From the NCBI GenBank assembly GCA_016787365.1, contig JAEUTR010000240.1, positions 1-34,548 of the forward strand: a stretch of 34,548 nucleotides of DNA, given 5' to 3'. This document shows positions 12,007 to 26,847 of the stretch, piece after piece. Positions within the stretch are counted from its first letter, which is position 1. Each line of letters starts with the position of its first letter. The stretch is from Bacteroidia bacterium (GTDB taxonomy: Bacteria > Bacteroidota > Bacteroidia > B-17B0 > Aurantibacillaceae). Below the pieces are notes generated by a model, which saw nothing but the letters and a program-made list of their open reading frames with translations, ran no database searches and was not told where the DNA came from. A program made the position numbers and the translations under genes.

Positions 12007-12987
12007 TTACTTATTCAACACAATTTTTTCTCGTTTAACAATGCGATTACTTTGATATACATTTACAAAGTAAATGCCATTAGCAAAATTATCTAAGTGC
12101 AAAGTATGCAAAACATTAGTTGGCATTTCAGATAATAACACTTGTCCTGTAATTGAAAGAATTTCTATCTTTTGTAATTCTGTTTTTGAATTAATAGTTA
12201 ATGAACCGTTTGTTGGATTTGGGTTAATGGAAATTGAATTGCTATTTAAAAATTCCTTTAAACCAACATCTATAGACGCTGTTAATGAGCCAGATCCTGA
12301 GGTTAATGGAGAAATTATTCCGAAAGCGTTAGATTGATCAGCTTGCGATATTCCTATATTTAAAACCTGATCAGTTGTTAAAGTCGACTTAATTTGATAA
12401 TGTAAAGTAGCTATTTTTCCATAACCATTTACATTATTGTTTACTGTATGCGTAGTGGCTGTAAATAATTTACCATTAGCAAAATCTAATTTTCTAAAAT
12501 GCAAATTTTGCCCTGCATCTAAAAACGAATTTTGATACTCGACGTAAATACTATTTGGTTCAATCAAGGTATTATCAAAATCAACCGTAAAAGCAATTCC
12601 ATTAATATTATTAATACTTGTTGTTACATCTCCCAAATAAATGGAAGCTGTTCCCCAATTTCCTTTTGCTACATCTGCTTGATCAGGTACAATACTTAGT
12701 TGTGGATTGACCGTATTTGTTTGTGCAGGTTTAAATGCATGCGTTAATCCATAATTATTATAGATCGCTAATGTATCATTGTCATCAACGATTCCATCTC
12801 CGTTACAATCGCTGTGATTCAAATTTTTTCCGTTAGTAATGGTTCCTGCCCAGTTATTCGAAAAATACGGCTGCCAAGCATTACTAATACTTGCTCTTGG
12901 TGCGCCTGTTTGCGTATAATGTAAGCCAAGTTCTAGCACATCCAAATTATCTGCTAGTCCATCGCTGTTGACATCACCTGGCCAAAC
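12007..12987 (-). repeat. C-terminal module, copy 1 (dockerin-like, cohesin-like, T9SS)
   Basis: The last 326 codons of the FG-GAP gene align over their full length with the last 328 codons of the neighbouring SBBP gene. The match begins exactly at VWPGDVNSDG in both and ends at the stop codons. Some stretches are almost the same at DNA level, for example CATCGCTGTTGACATCACCT. The sequences upstream are unrelated, so the module has been duplicated or exchanged as a unit. Confidence 0.9.
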
Positions 12988-15639
12988 GTCTTGGCAGGTA
13001 GGATCAACTATTACACTAACTGTTTGTGTATTACTACAATTATTTGAATCTGTTCCTGTTACTGAATACACTGTAGTTATCGTAGGGGCAACAACAGCGA
13101 CTAATGAAGTTTGACCAGTATTCCAGTAATAACTCATAGCGCCACTTGCAGTTAGCGAATTTGTGCTCGCAGCACATATTAAACTTTGACTGGCGACTAC
13201 ATTTATAATTGGCAAAGGATAAAAATTTACATTAATACTGCTAGTGCTAACTCCACATGTGCTGTTCATATAATTTATTGTAACACTATATGTGCCATTT
13301 ACAGATATCGCCATAGTATCCGCTGAAGAAAAGTTAGGATTCCAAAGGTATGAATCGGCTCCCTTAGATGCTTGCAATATAGCAGACAAACCAATACAAG
13401 CAGTAGTTTTTAATTTTAAAGAGGTAGTGCGATTTAACAATATAGTAATTCCATTGATATTTAAAACCCCCATGTCTATAAGTCCATCTTTATTAAGATC
13501 CGAAGCAATCACATCAGCTACAGTAGACCCAACATTATAGTTAATCGCCGGAAAGAATCCGCCATTACCCTGACCCAAAAAGAAAGAAATATTTGCAGAA
13601 TACAAATTTACTGATGCAATGTCCAAATTGCCATCATTATCAAAATCGCTAATCAATAACTTAGTGATATATTTGCCTCCTGTCTGGTAGTTAATCGGAG
13701 GAGAAAATCCACTTCCATTCCCTAAAAATACAGATATGCTATTTAATGTTCCATTTGAAACTGCTAGATCTGTTTTTCCATCTTTATTAAAATCTGTAGC
13801 AACAATATGTTCAGGACTGGCTGTTATTGAAAAATTAGATAATGTAAATCCTCCTGATCCATTTCCTAGAAGGGATGCAACAAAATAGTTGGGAAATGGA
13901 GGTTGTGGCGTCTTACCTACACCAACAACAAAGTCAATGTTTCCGTCATTATTCAAATCTGTGGATATCGGTTCATATAAATGACTACCAGCTGATGTAA
14001 TAGTATATGTGGTTTGTAGTGTAAATGCTCCTTGCCCATTTCCTAAAAATAAAGCGGCTTGCGAATAAGGCGCCGAAATAAAAATATCTATATTGCCGTC
14101 ATGATTATAATCTGCTGTCGTAGGCCTACCAAGCTCAATTAAGGCAGGAAGCATATAGGAATTTGTTGCGACAAAACCGCCTGTTCCATTGCCTAATTTA
14201 ACAACTAAATAATATAAATCTGATGTTGACTGTCCTGTAAAAGCAATATCAGGTTTATTATCATTATTAAAGTCTGCCGAGGTAACAAAATATGTACCTG
14301 TTAATGTATAAGGATAATTTGACCCGCTTCCTGCGTGTTTTTCAAAAACAGATGAATATGTCCCCAGTCCATCAGCCTTTATTATGATAAGACTATCTTC
14401 ACCAGAGTCATCCGTTATAAAATCTATATAATCATCTGAATTCATATTACATGAAACAAAAGAACCCATTCTTATTCCAGAATAAGAATCTTGAATATAG
14501 GTAGTTGGCAAGTCAAAATTCCCATTTCCATTTCCCGCACATATATTTAGAATACTTAAACCATGATTTTTGATAGCAATATCAAGATTTCCATCATTAT
14601 TAAAGTCCCCCTCAGTTGTTATGCCAATACCCGGGTAGTCAATCGCTGTTGAAAAAGTTCCATTATTTTTACCTGTATATATTGAAAACGAAGAATAGTT
14701 TGAGTTTAGTAAATCTAATTTCCCATCATTATTAAAATCTGCGGCAATCAAAGAATAGGATCCAGATTGTGATGTATTATATTTTACCGGAGGGGTAAAT
14801 CCACCAGTGCCATTGCCTATTAAAATATCCATTTTTTTATACGAATTAAAATTAGTTATGGCTAGATCAGATATGCCATCATTATTAAAATCGGAACTCA
14901 CAATTGAACTCGCTTGTAATTCAATGCTGTAAGTAGTCGCAGCCCCAAATCCACCCAGTCCATTGGCTATAAATATTGATAGATAAGATATAGCATCTAC
15001 ATTTGATGTATTTACAATTGCCAAATCATATTTTCCGTCATTATTAAAATCTGAAGACGCTAATGATCGAGGATTTGTGCCATTTAAAAGTATCGACGAT
15101 GTTGAAAATATGCCAAGTCCATCCCCAAAAAGAATGCTCGTATTACTAGAGCTATTATTTGCTACAGCTAAATCTACATGAGAGTCTCCATTAAAATCTT
15201 TACAAACAACATAACACGGATTTGTTCCAACAAGATAATTTAAACTATTGCTAAAAACTCCGTTACCAGTTCCAAGTAAGATCGAGATATTATTTGAATT
15301 ATAATTTGCTACTACCAGATCCAGTAGCCCATCTTCATTAAAATCAGCTGTTTGAATTGCCTTTGGAAGAACTCCTACATTATAATTTACTGCACTTGCA
15401 AAAGTAGCATCCCCATTTCCTAAAAAAACCGATATATTATTTAAATCACGATTTGTAACAACTAAATCTAAGTTTCCATCTCCATTAAAATCACCATGTG
15501 TCATACTACCTTGATCGGCATTCGGCTGACTCTCCAAAGAATTAGGCGTTAGGGTATTGCTATTAAAGCATAATTGTTGGGCATTAACAATTATACATGA
15601 TAAAAAAATTATAGTTATAAATACAATTATTCTTTTCAT
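12007..15639 (-). CDS. Large secreted FG-GAP/VCBS beta-propeller protein with dockerin-like, cohesin-like and T9SS domains
   Basis: 1210-residue secreted protein. The signal peptide is MKRIIVFITIIFLSCIIVNA. Residues ~40-745 hold about 14 FG-GAP-like repeats of ~48 residues, each with a calcium-type DFNxDGxxD motif (GDFNGDGNLDLVV, ADFNEDGLLDLVV, SDFNNDGISDLAI and so on) and a FLGNGxGxF strand; 14 would fit two seven-bladed propellers. Two Ig/PKD-like stretches follow (~745-884). Residues 885-965 carry two EF-hand-like loops, GDVNSDGLADNLD and DCNGDGIVDDND, as in type I dockerins but with a longer linker. Residues 981-1124 look cohesin-like (GIAFTVDFDNTLIEPNS ... GYGKIATLHYQIKS). Residues 1125-1210 are a T9SS type A sorting domain (SINPNPTNGSLTI ... 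GIYFVNVY). The C-terminal module is shared with the next gene. Ligand unknown; adhesion or matrix binding is a guess. Confidence 0.88.
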   Translation of the reverse strand: MKRIIVFITIIFLSCIIVNAQQLCFNSNTLTPNSLESQPNADQGSMTHGDFNGDGNLDLVVTNRDLNNISVFLGNGDATFASAVNYNVGVLPKAIQTADFNEDGLLDLVVANYNSNNISILLGTGNGVFSNSLNYLVGTNPCYVVCKDFNGDSHVDLAVANNSSSNTSILFGDGLGIFSTSSILLNGTNPRSLASSDFNNDGKYDLAIVNTSNVDAISYLSIFIANGLGGFGAATTYSIELQASSIVSSDFNNDGISDLAITNFNSYKKMDILIGNGTGGFTPPVKYNTSQSGSYSLIAADFNNDGKLDLLNSNYSSFSIYTGKNNGTFSTAIDYPGIGITTEGDFNNDGNLDIAIKNHGLSILNICAGNGNGNFDLPTTYIQDSYSGIRMGSFVSCNMNSDDYIDFITDDSGEDSLIIIKADGLGTYSSVFEKHAGSGSNYPYTLTGTYFVTSADFNNDNKPDIAFTGQSTSDLYYLVVKLGNGTGGFVATNSYMLPALIELGRPTTADYNHDGNIDIFISAPYSQAALFLGNGQGAFTLQTTYTITSAGSHLYEPISTDLNNDGNIDFVVGVGKTPQPPFPNYFVASLLGNGSGGFTLSNFSITASPEHIVATDFNKDGKTDLAVSNGTLNSISVFLGNGSGFSPPINYQTGGKYITKLLISDFDNDGNLDIASVNLYSANISFFLGQGNGGFFPAINYNVGSTVADVIASDLNKDGLIDMGVLNINGITILLNRTTSLKLKTTACIGLSAILQASKGADSYLWNPNFSSADTMAISVNGTYSVTINYMNSTCGVSTSSINVNFYPLPIINVVASQSLICAASTNSLTASGAMSYYWNTGQTSLVAVVAPTITTVYSVTGTDSNNCSNTQTVSVIVDPTCQDVWPGDVNSDGLADNLDVLELGLHYTQTGAPRASISNAWQPYFSNNWAGTITNGKNLNHSDCNGDGIVDDNDTLAIYNNYGLTHAFKPAQTNTVNPQLSIVPDQADVAKGNWGTASIYLGDVTTSINNINGIAFTVDFDNTLIEPNSIYVEYQNSFLDAGQNLHFRKLDFANGKLFTATTHTVNNNVNGYGKIATLHYQIKSTLTTDQVLNIGISQADQSNAFGIISPLTSGSGSLTASIDVGLKEFLNSNSISINPNPTNGSLTINSKTELQKIEILSITGQVLLSEMPTNVLHTLHLDNFANGIYFVNVYQSNRIVKREKIVLNK

Positions 15640-15958
15640 AAATTAAAATTACATCAAATATAACTCTAATTCCCACATAATTCCTTACGTTAAAAGGCTT
15701 TTTAGCACAAAACAATCCCCCATCATTACTGCTGAAAGGCTTCATTATTTCGTTTTATACCCAATTTGCATTCTCTCCTTTTGCTTCGTTTCCTGTTATC
15801 TTTCTACAATAAATAATTAATGACTTCGTAAACATCTCTAAACTGCTTGTTATATTTATTTTCGAATTCTTTTAATTTACTATTTAGCTACGCCATGCGA
15901 TTACCTTGTTAAAAGAAAAAAATCGCTGCAAAAGATAGAATTTCTATCGGAATTCTAA
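15640..15958. other. Intergenic region between the two propeller genes
   Basis: 319 bases without a gene. Near the right end, GATAGAA (15934-15940) and TTCTATC (15942-15948) form a small hairpin that on the minus strand is followed by UUUU, a weak terminator for the SBBP gene. On the minus strand TATATTTG (15662-15655) fits the -7 consensus just before the FG-GAP gene, but has no TTG at the right spacing. Confidence 0.45.
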
Positions 15959-16945
15959 TTACTTATTCAACACCGCTTTCTCTCTCTTAATAATACGATT
16001 GTTTTGATATAGATTCACAAAATAAATGCCATTAGCAAAATTATCTAAATGCAATGTATGAGAAACGTTAGATGGTGTTTCACTTAATAACACTTGCCCT
16101 GTAATTGAAAGAACTTCTATTTTTTGTAATTCTGTTTTTGAATTGATAGTAAGTATACCATCTGTTGGGTTAGGAACCATAGAAATAAAATTACTATTCA
16201 TTGTCTCTTGTAATCCAACACTGGTTACTAAGATGGTCACCGATGATTTTCCTGCCGTTAAAGGGAAAATTGTACCGGATACATCAGAGTGAACGGCCTG
16301 TGTTATTCCTAAATTTAAAACTGTATCAGTTGTTAAACTGGATTTAATTTGATAATGTAAAATACCTATTAAGCCACTGCCACTCACGTTATTGTTTATG
16401 GTATGTGTAGTAGCTGTATATATTTTTCCATTAGCAAAATCCGATTTACGGAAATGTAAATTTTGATTGGAGGTATTGATAAATGATGTGGGATATTCTA
16501 ACCAAACTGTATTGGGTTCAATAATCGTATTATCAAAGTTTACTGTAAATGCTACTCCGTTAATGTCATTAATAATATTTGATGCATCTCCCAAATAAAT
16601 GGATGATGTTCCCCACGTTCCTTTTGGAAGTATTGGTTGATCAGGAACGATCATTAGTTGAGGGCTTATCATGTTTTCGTCACTAACTCTGAATGCGTGG
16701 GTTAATCCATAATTATTAAATATCGCTAATGTATCATCATCATTAATTATTCCGTCTCCATTGCAATCACTATGATTTAAATTTTTTCCATTAGTAATTG
16801 TTCCTGACCAGTTGTTTGAAAAATACGATTGCCAAGCGTTACTTATACTTGCTCTTGGAGTACCTGTTTGTGTATAATGTAAGCCTAACTCTAATACATC
16901 TAAATTATCTGCTATACCATCGCTGTTGACATCACCTGGCCAAAC
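15959..16945 (-). repeat. C-terminal module, copy 2 (dockerin-like, cohesin-like, T9SS)
   Basis: Partner of the module at 12007-12987. It is two residues longer, in the cohesin-like part (an extra residue around SFINTSNQ and another in the linker to the T9SS domain). Conserved blocks include NGKNLNHSDCNGDGI, IYLGD, NLHFRK-DFANGK, TATTHT-NNNV, and SKTELQKIE-LSITGQVLL. Confidence 0.9.
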
Positions 16946-18382
16946 ATTTGAAGATTTATTAAACCCCTTAATCTTTGCAATAAATATATCTTCTCCACCT
17001 ACAGATGTTAATGGTAGTCCAGGTGTTGACCAAACTGAATTTCTAAATATTCCTTTTATATAAATCTGCCCTTTATTGTTTGCTATTATACAATCTCCAA
17101 TATCTTGAGTTGACCCACCAAAAGAAAATCCTTTTAAAAACATTCCATAAGAGTCAATTTCTGTCAAAAAAACATCACAATAACTAGTAGTGCTATTCAT
17201 GATAAATGTTCCAGGTCCTGGATCAAAATCTGGGTTATTAGAAAACAATCCTGTTATGTATATATTATTATTGTTATTAATATTAATGCTATAACCTCCA
17301 TCGTCACTTGTATTACCAATACGCTTCGCCCATAAAAAAAGCCCATTCATATCTAATTTTTCAATAAAAACATCTCTGCTGCCTGCCGAATTTAAATAAT
17401 ATGTCCCTACCCCAGGGTCGAAATCTGCACCACCATAAAATGATCCTGTTATAAAAACATTACCTTGATAATCTACGGCCATATTTTTTGATGAGAAAAA
17501 ACTTATAGCAGAAGATGGATAATCACAACTTATCTGTTTAGCCCAAACCAAAACTCCCAATGAGTTAAACTTAGTAATAAAGAGATCACTCTGTCCAACA
17601 GCCGTAAAGTTGTTAACAGCAATTCCAGGGTCTACATCAACAGTGCCACCAAAATTAGCGCTGAAATAAATATTATTGAAATGATCAACGCCTAATAGCG
17701 AACTATAGCCGTAAGATGTGTTCCCATTATACTGTATAGCATTTGCCCAAACAAAATTCCCTAATTGATTCAATTTACAGGTAAAATAACTTCCTTGCGA
17801 ATTAATGTCTGTTAAATTATAAATTCCAGATCCTGGATCAAAATCAATTGTATTGTAGAAAAGTCCTGAAAAAATAATTGAACCTGAATTATCTAACGTA
17901 ATAGAGTAAATATTGTTTACATATGAAAATTCTTTTGCCCATAAGAAATTTCCCAATGAATCATATTTAGCAACAAAGGCTCCTGAGTTTATTATAAAGA
18001 TAGATGGTCCTGGATCTAAATCACAGTTACCAGCTATTCCAACAATAAAGAAATTATTTAAACTATCTAATTTAAAAACTACATCTCCTACGTTTGATCC
18101 AATAGATTTAGCCCACTTAAAATTACCAGAACTATCTAATTTGTGTATGTAAATACTACCATTATCAGGAATTAAATTATAAATACCTGAACTCGTATCA
18201 AAATCTATTGTATCAGTGAATACACCTACAGTGTAAATATTTTCATTTTTGTCAATTGCGATAGATGCAGGTGATTCGGAATAATTTCCTCCAAAACTTT
18301 TACCCCACACCGCTGTTGGATTTTGACTAATAACATTTAAACTTACGAAAATAAGAAAACAAATAGTGCTAAATTTTTTCAT
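15959..18382 (-). CDS. Secreted SBBP-repeat beta-propeller protein with dockerin-like, cohesin-like and T9SS domains
   Basis: 807-residue secreted protein starting MKKFSTICFLIFVSLNVISQ, a signal peptide. An in-frame extension to 18430 would put non-signal sequence in front of it, so ATG 18382 is chosen. Residues ~25-480 contain seven repeats of ~60 residues of the SBBP (seven-bladed beta-propeller) type, each with a pattern such as NIYITGLFSNNPDFDPGPGT followed by DVFLTEID and FLWAKRIG; seven copies fit one propeller. From about residue 480 the protein is a near copy of the C-terminus of the neighbour: dockerin-like loops GDVNSDGIADNLD and DCNGDGIINDDD, a cohesin-like domain, and a T9SS type A signal (SMVPNPTDGILTI ... 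GIYFVNLY). The shared module probably does the same job of display or docking for a different propeller head. Confidence 0.87.
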   Translation of the reverse strand: MKKFSTICFLIFVSLNVISQNPTAVWGKSFGGNYSESPASIAIDKNENIYTVGVFTDTIDFDTSSGIYNLIPDNGSIYIHKLDSSGNFKWAKSIGSNVGDVVFKLDSLNNFFIVGIAGNCDLDPGPSIFIINSGAFVAKYDSLGNFLWAKEFSYVNNIYSITLDNSGSIIFSGLFYNTIDFDPGSGIYNLTDINSQGSYFTCKLNQLGNFVWANAIQYNGNTSYGYSSLLGVDHFNNIYFSANFGGTVDVDPGIAVNNFTAVGQSDLFITKFNSLGVLVWAKQISCDYPSSAISFFSSKNMAVDYQGNVFITGSFYGGADFDPGVGTYYLNSAGSRDVFIEKLDMNGLFLWAKRIGNTSDDGGYSININNNNNIYITGLFSNNPDFDPGPGTFIMNSTTSYCDVFLTEIDSYGMFLKGFSFGGSTQDIGDCIIANNKGQIYIKGIFRNSVWSTPGLPLTSVGGEDIFIAKIKGFNKSSNVWPGDVNSDGIADNLDVLELGLHYTQTGTPRASISNAWQSYFSNNWSGTITNGKNLNHSDCNGDGIINDDDTLAIFNNYGLTHAFRVSDENMISPQLMIVPDQPILPKGTWGTSSIYLGDASNIINDINGVAFTVNFDNTIIEPNTVWLEYPTSFINTSNQNLHFRKSDFANGKIYTATTHTINNNVSGSGLIGILHYQIKSSLTTDTVLNLGITQAVHSDVSGTIFPLTAGKSSVTILVTSVGLQETMNSNFISMVPNPTDGILTINSKTELQKIEVLSITGQVLLSETPSNVSHTLHLDNFANGIYFVNLYQNNRIIKREKAVLNK

Positions 18383-18590
18383 GTTAAAATGTTTTAAATA
18401 TAAAAATACGAAATTTGTTTTTGAGATCAAACCACTTACTTATATTTGATTTAATTACAAAAACTATTTCTTTTGAGGGTTCAATTTATACTCAAATTTT
18501 AGTAATACAGAATGATGTTAGAGGTTTTCAATGTTTCACCTTAAAATAAATATCTCATTATAAAATACACTGATTATTCTCTTCAAACAA
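18383..18590. other. Intergenic region upstream of the SBBP gene
   Basis: About 200 AT-rich bases between the rpoC terminator and the SBBP start. I see no gene and no well-spaced promoter pair on the minus strand. Confidence 0.4.
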
Positions 18591-18620
18591 AAAAGCCCTG
18601 ATAATTATATCAGGGCTTTT
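18591..18620 (-). terminator. Rho-independent terminator of the rplKAJL-rpoBC cluster
   Basis: Perfect 13-base stem (18591-18603 with 18608-18620), 4-base loop, core AAAAGCCCTGATA. On the minus strand it follows the rpoC stop by 25 bases and runs into a U tract. It is U-rich on both sides. Confidence 0.93.
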
Positions 18621-18645
18621 TATTTATCTATTAAGTTGTTTCAGA

Positions 18646-22983
<4,338 letters not shown>

Positions 22984-22988
22984 TTATT

Positions 22989-23021
22989 CATCGGTGGCTT
23001 CGAGAGCCTCAGCCACCGATG
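22989..23021. other. Hairpin in the rpoB-rpoC spacer
   Basis: Perfect 11-base stem, CATCGGTGGCT (22989-22999) with AGCCACCGATG (23011-23021), in the 93-base gap between rpoB and rpoC. No U tract follows on the minus strand (the next bases are AATAAGTAAAAG), so it is more likely an RNA-processing or stability element than a terminator. Confidence 0.6.
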
Positions 23022-23034
23022 TTTTAAGTTTATC

Positions 23035-26000
23035 TTAGTCTAGTGTTACATCTAACGCTAATCCACGTAATTCGTGCATTAATACATTAAACGACTCTGG
23101 TATACCAGGAGCTGGAATGTTTTCGCCTTTTACAATTGCTTCATAAGCTTTTGCACGGCCCATTACATCATCCGATTTAATAGTTAACAATTCTTGTAAC
23201 ACATTAGCTGCACCGTATGCCTCTAAAGCCCAAACCTCCATCTCACCAAAACGCTGACCACCAAATTGTGCTTTACCACCTAAAGGTTGTTGTGTAATTA
23301 ATGAATATGGTCCGATTGAACGAGCATGCATCTTATCATCAACCATGTGTCCTAATTTTAACATGTAAATGATACCTACAGTAGCCGGTTGGTCAAAACG
23401 TTCACCAGTTCCACCATCAATTAGGTAAGTACGGCCATATTGAGGAATTTTAGCTTTCGTTGTGTATTCATCAATTTGTTCCATAGTTGCTCCATCGAAA
23501 ATTGGAGTAGAAAATTTTAATCCTAATTCTTTCCCAGCCCAAGCTAATACAGTTTCATAAATCTGTCCGATGTTCATACGAGATGGTACACCTAATGGAT
23601 TTAATACAATATCAACTGGAGTTCCATCTTCCAAGAACGGCATGTCTTCATCTTTTACAATACGGGCAACAATCCCTTTGTTACCATGACGACCAGCCAT
23701 TTTATCACCTACTCTTAACTTACGTTTTTGAGCGATGTAAACTTTAGCTAACTGAACAATTCCGTTTGGTAATTCATCTCCAACAGTAATTTGGAATTTC
23801 TCACGTTTGTATTGACCTAAGAAGTCATTATACTTAATCATGAAGTTATGTAACAAACGCTCAATTTGCTCATTTTTATCTTTATCAGTTGTCCAGTTTC
23901 CTGGGTTAACTTCAGAGAAATCAATTTTCTCTAATAATTTTTGAGTAAACTTAGTTCCTTTTGTAATTACTTCTTCACCTAAGATATTATGAACGCCTTG
24001 AGATGTACGACCATTAACTAGTTCAAATAATTTTTCGATTAATTGGTACTTGATATTAGCAATTGCTTTATGGTGATCTGCATCTAATTTTTCAATTAAA
24101 GGTTTTTCATCCGCTTTTTGCTTTTTATCTTTAATAGCACGAGAGAATAATTTTTTATCAACGATAACACCTTTTAATGAAGGGGAAACACGTAAAGACG
24201 CATCTTTCACATCACCTGCTTTATCACCGAAGATTGCACGTAATAATTTTTCTTCTGGAGATGGATCGGTTTCACCTTTTGGAGTAATTTTTCCAATTAA
24301 GATATCACCTTCTTTAACCTCAGCACCAACACGAATAATACCTTTTTCATCTAAGTCTTTAGTTGCTTCTTCACTTACGTTAGGAATATCCGGAGTTAAT
24401 TCTTCCATTCCACGTTTTGTGTCACGCACTTCTAAAGAATATTCATCAATATGAATAGATGTAAAAATATCATCACGAATGATACGTTCAGAGATTACGA
24501 TCGCATCCTCAAAGTTATAACCTTTCCAAGGCATGAACGCTACTTTTAAGTTACGTCCTAATGCTAATTCACCTTTATCGGTTGCATAACCATCACATAA
24601 TACTTGTCCTTTTACAACCTTATCACCTTTCTTAACGATAGGTTTTAAGTTCATACAAGTACTTTGGTTCGTTTTTTGGAATTTAGTTAATTTATAAGTT
24701 CTAACATCGCCTTCAAACGATACTAATTTCTCGTCGTTAGTTCTGTTGTAACGAATTACAATTTCACGAGCATCAACATACTCAACAATTCCTTCGCCTT
24801 CTGCATTAATTAATACACGGCTATCTTCCGCTACACGAGCTTCGATACCAGTACCAACAATTGGTGCTTCAGGACGCATTAATGGAACTGCTTGACGTTG
24901 CATGTTCGATCCCATCAAGGCACGGTTAGCATCATCATGCTCTAAGAACGGAATCAAAGACGCCGCAATAGAAGCAATTTGATTAGGAGCAACATCCATT
25001 AAATTAACCTTAGCTGGCTCAATTACCGGGAAGTCACCTTCGTAACGAGCAGTTACTTTGTCGTTAACGAAGTTTCCTTTTTCATCTAATTCTGCACTTG
25101 TTTGAGCAATATTTTTTTGATCTTCTTCTTCAGCAGTTAAATAAGTAATTCCTTTATTTACATCCACTTTACCGTTAGTTACAGAACGGAAAGGAGTTTC
25201 AATAAATCCTAATTTATTTACTTTAGCGAACACGCATAATGAAGAAATTAATCCAATGTTTGGTCCTTCTGGAGTCTCAATAGTACAAAGACGACCATAG
25301 TGAGTGTAGTGAACGTCACGTACCTCGAAACCAGCACGCTCACGAGATAAACCTCCTGGCCCTAGTGCCGAAAGACGACGCTTATGCGTAATCTCCGATA
25401 AAGGATTAGTTTGATCCATGAACTGAGATAACTGATTCGTTCCAAAGAATGAATTAATTACAGAAGATAATGTTTTTGCATTAATCAAATCGGTTGGTGT
25501 AAATACCTCGTTATCACGAACGTTCATACGCTCACGAATAGTACGAGCCATACGTGCTAAACCTACACCAAATTGAGAGAATAATTGCTCACCAACTGTA
25601 CGTACACGACGGTTAGATAAGTGATCAATATCATCCACATCAGTTTTAGAGTTAATTAATTCGATCAAATATTTCATGATCAAAATAATATCTTCTTTAG
25701 TTAATACACGGATATTCATAGGAATATCGATGCCTAACTTTTTGTTGATACGGAAACGACCTACTTCACCTAAATCATAACGTTTATCAGAGAAGAATAA
25801 CTTGTCGATTACTCCACGAGCTGTTTCTTCATCAGGTGGCTCAGCATTACGAAGTAAACGGTAGATATACTCGATTGCTTCTTTTTCTGAGTTAGTTGAA
25901 TCTTTTTGTAAAGTATTGTAGATAATAGCAAAATCTGCTGTATTTACGTCTTCTTTGTGCAAGATGATAGATTTAACACCAGCATCAGCAATTAAGTCTA

Positions 26001-26847
26001 TATGATTATCATCTAAAACCGTTTCACGGTCTAAGATAACTTCGTTACGCTCAATTGATACAACTTCCCCGGTATCCTCATCTACGAAATCTTCAATCCA
26101 TGTTTTTAAAACACGAGCCGCTAGTCTACGACCAACCTCACGTTTTAAACCTGCTTTCGAAACTTTCACTTCGTCAGCTAAACCAAAAATTTCTAAAATT
26201 TGTTTATCACTTTCAAAACCAATAGCACGTAATAACGTTGTTACTGGTAATTTTTTCTTACGATCAATGTATGCATACATCACATTATTGATGTCAGTTG
26301 CAAACTCAATCCAAGAACCTTTGAAAGGAATAACACGAGCACTATATAATTTAGTCCCATTTGCGTGACGGCTTTGTCCGAAGAACACGCCTGGAGAACG
26401 GTGTAATTGAGAAACGATAACACGTTCAGCACCATTGATTACGAAAGAACCTTTTGGTGTCATGTACGGGATTGTTCCCAAATAAACGTCCTGCACAATG
26501 GTTTCAAAATCTTCATGTTCAGGATCAGTACAGTAAAGCTTTAATTTAGCTTTTAAAGGCACTGAATAAGTTAAACCACGGCTGATACACTCTTCTAGTG
26601 CATAGCGTGGTGGATCTACGAAATAATCCAAAAATTCTAATACGAAATTGTTTCTCGCATCAGAGATAGGAAAGTTTTCGGCAAACACGCGGAATAAACC
26701 TTCATTTTTACGGTTATCCGGTGTAGTTTCTAATTGAAAGAAATCTTGGAAAGATTTCACTTGGATATCCAAAAAATCTGGATATTCAATTGGAAATTTG
26801 TTTGAAGAGAAGTTAATTCTCTGTGATTTTTTAATTGCTGTAGCCAA
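23035..26847 (-). CDS. rpoB: RNA polymerase beta subunit
   Basis: Second large subunit of the transcription enzyme, 1270 residues, complete. The rifampicin-binding region is clear ([20 protein letters not shown] then [20 protein letters not shown]) and carries the wild-type Asp, His and Ser at the positions equivalent to E. coli 516, 526 and 531, so no resistance change is seen. Also present are [17 protein letters not shown] and the C-terminal [18 protein letters not shown]. The start is TTG at 26847: an in-frame TAA lies seven codons upstream and no ATG intervenes, while the product beginning [15 protein letters not shown] fits the family. It lies 119 bases after rplL, with a hairpin between, and 93 bases before rpoC. 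Stop TAA. Confidence 0.97.

Follow-up and report, generated by a model that had tools for sequence, protein, structure and literature searches.

We analysed a window of 34,548 nt, positions 1 to 34,548 of contig JAEUTR010000240.1 from the Bacteroidia bacterium assembly GCA_016787365.1. Two adjacent genes, here called P1 and P2, encode proteins with different heads and a shared C-terminal module that comprises a dockerin, a cohesin and a T9SS type A sorting domain (Table 1). The Ig/PKD-like stretch that precedes the module in P1 corresponds in position to Ig_7 or PKD_6 domains of relatives (Pfam). Both genes lie directly downstream of an rpoC-like gene on the same strand (18646-22545), and a large ORF farther upstream on that strand (23035-26847) is probably rpoB. 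The site downstream of the rpoC-like gene is an unusual location for variable surface-protein genes (window 15959-26847). A subtilase gene (Peptidase_S8) with a T9SS tail, truncated by the window edge, occupies positions 3-2681 of the plus strand.

Table 1. Features of the P1 and P2 genes, in window coordinates.
Feature	Position	Strand	Description	Basis
Gene P1	12007..15639	-	1210 aa: signal-peptide-like N-terminus, FG-GAP repeats, Ig/PKD-like stretch, shared module	ORF, translation, Pfam
P1 head	13435..15510	-	FG-GAP repeat (beta-propeller) region, ~residues 44-735	PF13517, 13 stretches, E 4e-67; limits from sequence reading
P1 Ig/PKD-like stretch	12988..13401	-	Abuts dockerin	Sequence pattern; Pfam non-significant in P1
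P1 Cys at -3 of module	12994..12996	-	Candidate disulfide partner of C61	Cys -3 in 56/72 relatives; disulfide predicted
P1 expanded dockerin	12724..12987	-	Module residues 1-88	A3 family profile E 6.8e-43; Pfam Dockerin_1 13.5 bits, below cut-off
P1 predicted calcium loop 1	12940..12975	-	DVNSDGLADNLD, module 5-16	Alignment of 72 relatives
P1 predicted calcium loop 2	12775..12810	-	DCNGDGIVDDND, module 60-71, contains invariant C61	Alignment of 72 relatives
P1 cohesin domain	12268..12711	-	Module 93-240	AF2, Foldseek; Pfam Cohesin 17.7 bits, below cut-off
P1 T9SS type A sorting domain	12010..12240	-	Module 250-326	PF18962 39.6 bits, TIGR04183 35.9 bits, both above cut-offs
Gene P2	15959..18382	-	807 aa: SBBP propeller head and shared module	ORF, translation, Pfam
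P2 head	16946..18322	-	SBBP beta-propeller repeats	PF06739 E 2e-5; NF047494 SBBP lipoprotein family E 6.5e-21, below that family's cut-off
P2 expanded dockerin	16682..16945	-		A3 family profile E 8.9e-43; Pfam Dockerin_1 12.3 bits over residues 3-75
P2 predicted calcium loop 1	16898..16933	-	DVNSDGIADNLD	Alignment
P2 predicted calcium loop 2	16733..16768	-	DCNGDGIINDDD	Alignment
P2 cohesin domain	16223..16669	-		A4 family profile E 6.5e-59
P2 T9SS type A sorting domain	15962..16192	-		PF18962 42.6 bits, TIGR04183 38.5 bits, both above cut-offs

The module begins at VWPGDVNSDG, residue 885 of P1 (326 aa) and residue 480 of P2 (328 aa). BLASTP aligned the two copies with 73.5% identity over 328 columns, and the DNA alignment (988 bases, 76.6%) also begins at the module. 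No significant BLASTP similarity was found between the N-terminal halves (best E 0.48). A first-pass annotation of this DNA had described a sharp start at this motif, unrelated N-terminal repeat families, a T9SS tail, and dockerin-like and cohesin-like parts in one chain. Each of these observations is borne out: protein and DNA alignments agree on the start, the heads belong to FG-GAP in P1 and to SBBP in P2, both proteins exceed the PF18962 and TIGR04183 cut-offs, dockerin homology is supported by profile and the cohesin fold by Foldseek. Its statement that the last ~326 residues are nearly the same holds insofar as the module is common to both proteins, but is slightly strong, with identities of 88% in the dockerin, 64% in the cohesin and 83% in the T9SS tail. 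Gene conversion between P1 and P2 was considered as the source of the similarity and is not supported. Synonymous differences are alike across the three parts (0.35, 0.34 and 0.29), and the P1 cohesin is up to 79% identical to copies from other genomes, compared with 64% to that of P2.

Canonical dockerins are a compact duplicated repeat with loops about 34 residues apart. The D5-D60 loop spacing in the cassette is 55 residues in 66 of 72 relatives, and the cassette dockerin therefore contains some 20 inserted residues, among which R31 is invariant and W46 nearly so. Both putative calcium loops fit DxNxDGxxxxxD, with D or N at positions 1, 3, 5 and 12 in essentially all 72 relatives; the exceptions are three S/T residues, all at position 5 of loop 2. 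Loop 1 is invariant at positions 1, 3 and 12 and has D or N at position 5 in 72/72, while C61 (within loop 2) and D71 are each present in 72/72. Ten dockerin positions are invariant in the family alignment. The cysteine three residues upstream of the module, found in 56 of the 72 relatives, is absent from P2. Together with C61 (codon 12805-12807 in P1, 16763-16765 in P2) it may form a candidate disulfide clasp of the dockerin in many members. The P1 and P2 dockerins both score below the Pfam cut-off of 22.9 bits for Dockerin_1 (PF00404). Dockerin homology is well supported by profile comparison, because 18 cassette copies in relatives exceed this cut-off and the equivalent stretch in more distant Bacteroidota scores up to 47.1 bits (L083); the cassette dockerin is best seen as a divergent, expanded form. 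AF2 modelled the cohesin and tail of the whole module well and the dockerin poorly, with a dockerin pLDDT of ~30-50 both in the whole module and with the cohesin only; helices follow both loops in this low-reliability model.

For the cohesin, P1 falls below the PF00963 cut-off of 24.1 bits, P2 gives no match and four cassette relatives exceed it. The AF2 model of this domain (pLDDT mostly 60-90) has nine strands in the expected order. Cohesins head the Foldseek list against the PDB (E 1e-11 to 1e-6), the best being the C. perfringens GH33 cohesin 2vo8 (TMt 0.82), with the Archaeoglobus cohesin 2xdh at TMt 0.70; some top alignments extend into the T9SS tail, and single-domain cohesin chains are the cleaner comparison. 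AF2 and Foldseek thus agree on a nine-strand jelly-roll cohesin fold, and the structure check proposed at first pass came out positive for the cohesin half (top solved structures all cohesins, TM up to 0.82). The sorting domain was matched in 72/72 relatives, and from it secretion and surface attachment of P1 and P2 are predicted. No cassette relatives were found on viral contigs, and a viral fold library gave weak matches only.

A genome-wide search for further proteins with the module, also proposed at first pass, revealed a recurrent unit: of 87 genomes searched from the order, 34 gave 76 matches in total, with up to 8 copies per genome and one run of five copies within ~13 kb. Separate profile searches of the 87 genomes returned 74 dockerin and 73 cohesin matches, which form 72 adjacent same-chain pairs. 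The unpaired matches, two dockerins and one cohesin, all lie at contig ends; apart from these, the 87 genomes yielded no cassette with a dockerin only or a cohesin only. The linker between the two domains measures 11-13 residues in 57 of the 72 relatives. Eighteen of the 34 positive genomes carry a single copy, and 12 of these are at least 90% complete. No further Pfam cohesin or dockerin was found in 11 of these 12, and therefore they offer no second protein as a partner of known type.

Pairwise identities across 2556 module pairs were correlated at 0.86 between dockerin and cohesin, 0.59 between dockerin and tail, and 0.66 between cohesin and tail. Tail pairs split into similar (~70%) and dissimilar (~30%) classes, also among modules whose dockerins and cohesins share 75-85% identity. 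Because of this split, we read the T9SS tails as having been exchanged to a large degree between modules and the dockerin-cohesin dyad as the stable unit. The heads vary as well. Besides P1 and P2, 17 were scanned singly and 53 as a group with Pfam, giving FG-GAP, SBBP, DUF5122, WD40 or Kelch propellers, PKD, Ig, SprB or laminin-G domains, or no Pfam match. No catalytic Pfam domain (glycoside hydrolase, protease or other) was detected in these 70 further heads, which look like adhesion or ligand-binding modules. Taken together, the comparisons demonstrate that dockerin and cohesin behave as one inherited block, while the head (propellers, Ig/PKD, LamG, SprB repeats) is swapped.

In a sample of the phylum, the same dockerin was present in 45 of 396 genomes. 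The architectures were dockerin-cohesin-T9SS, cohesin-dockerin-cohesin-T9SS and, in a few cases (L092, L128 and L129), dockerin-T9SS with no cohesin detected after the dockerin. Judged by these other domain orders, including dockerin-T9SS, the cassette is part of a wider Bacteroidota theme in which dockerin and cohesin are more loosely linked. The cohesin-dockerin-cohesin-T9SS proteins (L083, L078, L079 and L084) come from other families of the phylum, and in L083 a clear dockerin accompanies three stretches matched by the Pfam cohesin profile (E 4.6e-24). Seven ORFs of 460-530 aa from other Bacteroidota (L094, L096, L097, L131, L132, L135 and L136) align end to end and look like one orthologous family, with an N-terminal domain that is possibly cohesin-like, an expanded dockerin with the same insert, and a C-terminal part. 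Two 1156-aa relatives (L157, G079:C60, 4202-7672; L160, G051:C97, 3346-6813) combine Big_7 domains with a dockerin and a T9SS tail. In L157 the dockerin is followed by a Pfam cohesin match, so the order dockerin-cohesin-T9SS is also seen with another type of dockerin.

The cassette is not a cellulosome, because dockerin and cohesin sit in one chain and there is no separate scaffoldin, no enzyme and, elsewhere in the genome, no further member of either domain family. A Pfam search of the window's genome (84.5% complete) for cohesins and dockerins returned P1 only, below cut-off. Family profiles found the two cassettes and one insignificant dockerin match (E 0.09), and a scan of the genome contigs with one sequence gave two loci only. 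The remark made at first pass that the window lacks cellulosome genes can thus be extended to the whole 84.5%-complete genome, where no other cohesin or dockerin was detected. A cellulosome-like assembly, in which the module docks with scaffoldin or enzyme partners bearing other cohesins or dockerins, has separate-partner precedents in Archaeoglobus, C. perfringens and Ca. Stygibacter, and the relative G047 has tandem-cohesin proteins and a canonical dockerin outside the cassette. We nevertheless regard such an assembly as very improbable here, given that no sampled head is an enzyme and that Pfam and family profiles found no further cohesin or dockerin in the window's genome, with the proviso that Pfam misses many cassette copies and divergent partners could escape the search. 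In one G047 protein outside the cassette, a dockerin of canonical length and a cohesin precede a T9SS tail, and two further T9SS proteins there have tandem cohesins. These G047 proteins (loci L155, G047:C3, 122-10579, and L156, G047:C19, 1305-2936) are a possible true trans system within the family.

The obligate linkage, single-copy genomes, co-inheritance and short linker favour a dyad that engages itself. Moreover, obligate linkage and the frequent single copy per genome fit pairing in cis or like-with-like at least as well as the joining of two different proteins. Against a self-engaging dyad stand the dockerin-T9SS proteins elsewhere in the phylum (L092, L128 and L129). We tentatively propose, as a reading that is plausible while falling somewhat short of probable, that the module serves T9SS surface proteins as a transferable C-terminal cassette for display and that its dockerin-cohesin dyad is self-engaging, most likely in cis, and forms a stalk. 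The protein would first be exported by the T9SS, and the dockerin loops would then bind calcium outside the cell. The dockerin would engage a cassette cohesin, most likely its immediate neighbour within the chain, and the engaged dyad would make a stiff membrane-proximal stalk presenting the adhesion- or ligand-binding heads. In many members the dockerin may also be clamped by a bond between its invariant C61 and the Cys that precedes the module.

The first-pass annotation had raised pairing in trans, with the dockerin of one chain binding the cohesin of a neighbour, the same or a sister protein, which would link proteins with different heads into chains or a lattice on the cell surface. Known cohesin-dockerin pairs do work in trans, the neighbouring genes P1 and P2 encode dockerins that are 88% identical, and some genomes carry the multiple or clustered copies described above (up to 8, five within 13 kb); single-copy genomes too are compatible with homotypic trans pairing. 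We consider it rather unlikely, as the 87 genomes contain no dockerin-only or cohesin-only cassette and give no sign that dockerins are kept alike within a genome. The homogenisation expected if all had to fit one partner was not seen (same minus different 0.025, p 0.18; p 0.42 given cohesin identity). While the domain reading of the first-pass annotation was upheld by profiles and Foldseek, its proposal of mutual binding or chaining drew no pairing signal from the cohesin face or from covariation, both weak tests (Neff ~47). The classical dockerin-binding face of the cohesin (strands 5-6-3-8) had a conservation of 0.40 versus 0.44 for the other face (p 0.76), with an approximate in/out assignment of strand positions, and 79 dockerin-cohesin pairs were among the top 300 covariation signals versus 76 expected. 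For the self-engaging dyad, too, these results count neither way.

These flat results would also suit a module in which nothing pairs, the dockerin relative acting as a calcium-stiffened spacer and the cohesin as an Ig-like spacer that lengthen the stalk between head and sorting domain. Ig_7 and PKD_6 spacer domains do precede the module in many members, and co-inheritance of adjacent domains can arise without contact. If both were mere spacers, however, loss or exchange should be as common for them as for heads and tails, yet dockerin and cohesin always occur together, and the ten invariant dockerin positions suggest more than spacing; we think it unlikely that the two domains are spacers alone. 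The self-engaging dyad can be put in a more specific form, which is possible if on balance doubtful. Here the expanded, possibly disulfide-clasped dockerin and its own cohesin would be a self-docking unit, a calcium-triggered lock acting in cis or between identical chains, and would build the stalk of a T9SS family with exchangeable heads across Bacteroidota. If true, this would be a use of cohesin and dockerin unrelated to enzyme complexes.

A search of open-access papers found no description of the cassette, in which the dyad is fused into one secreted unit and copied under many different heads. Its sequence also marks a class of functionally uncharacterised surface proteins in uncultured Bacteroidota. 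If the dyad pairs in cis or like-with-like, it would offer a naturally occurring stalk controlled by calcium and a clear-cut test of the role of cohesin-dockerin pairs outside enzyme complexes.

Cohesins and dockerins outside any cellulosome are known from Archaeoglobus fulgidus, where the dockerin of ORF2375 and the cohesin of ORF2376 interact strongly as measured (PMC9705933). The folds or families are the same as in the cassette (cohesin 2xdh), but the tested A. fulgidus pair resides on two proteins, whereas the cassette has one chain, an expanded dockerin and a T9SS tail. According to Adams 2008 as cited in PMC12997984, C. perfringens has single-cohesin (X82) glycoside hydrolases and dockerin partners (structures 2vo8, 2w1n and 2jh2). 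These resemble the cassette in placing a single cohesin on a secreted protein with no scaffoldin, and they include the closest solved cohesins (2vo8, TMt 0.82); their heads are glycoside hydrolases, whereas the cassette heads lack a catalytic domain. Ca. Stygibacter (Cloacimonadota) has a cellulosome-like system with a T9SS-type C-terminal domain (PMC8542988) and, like the cassette, combines predicted cohesin and dockerin domains with such a domain for surface attachment. It keeps the classical split between a tandem-cohesin scaffoldin and dockerin enzymes, in contrast to the fused, enzyme-free dyad of the cassette. With T9SS type A cargo (Por_Secre_tail, PF18962/TIGR04183) the cassette shares a C-terminal sorting domain above the curated cut-offs; that family definition does not include a dockerin-cohesin dyad, which the cassette has before the tail. 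In the noncellulosomal systems compared (Archaeoglobus, C. perfringens and Ca. Stygibacter) the partners are described as residing on different proteins. The cassette is best called a previously undescribed form of the noncellulosomal cohesin-dockerin kind, fused to T9SS display.
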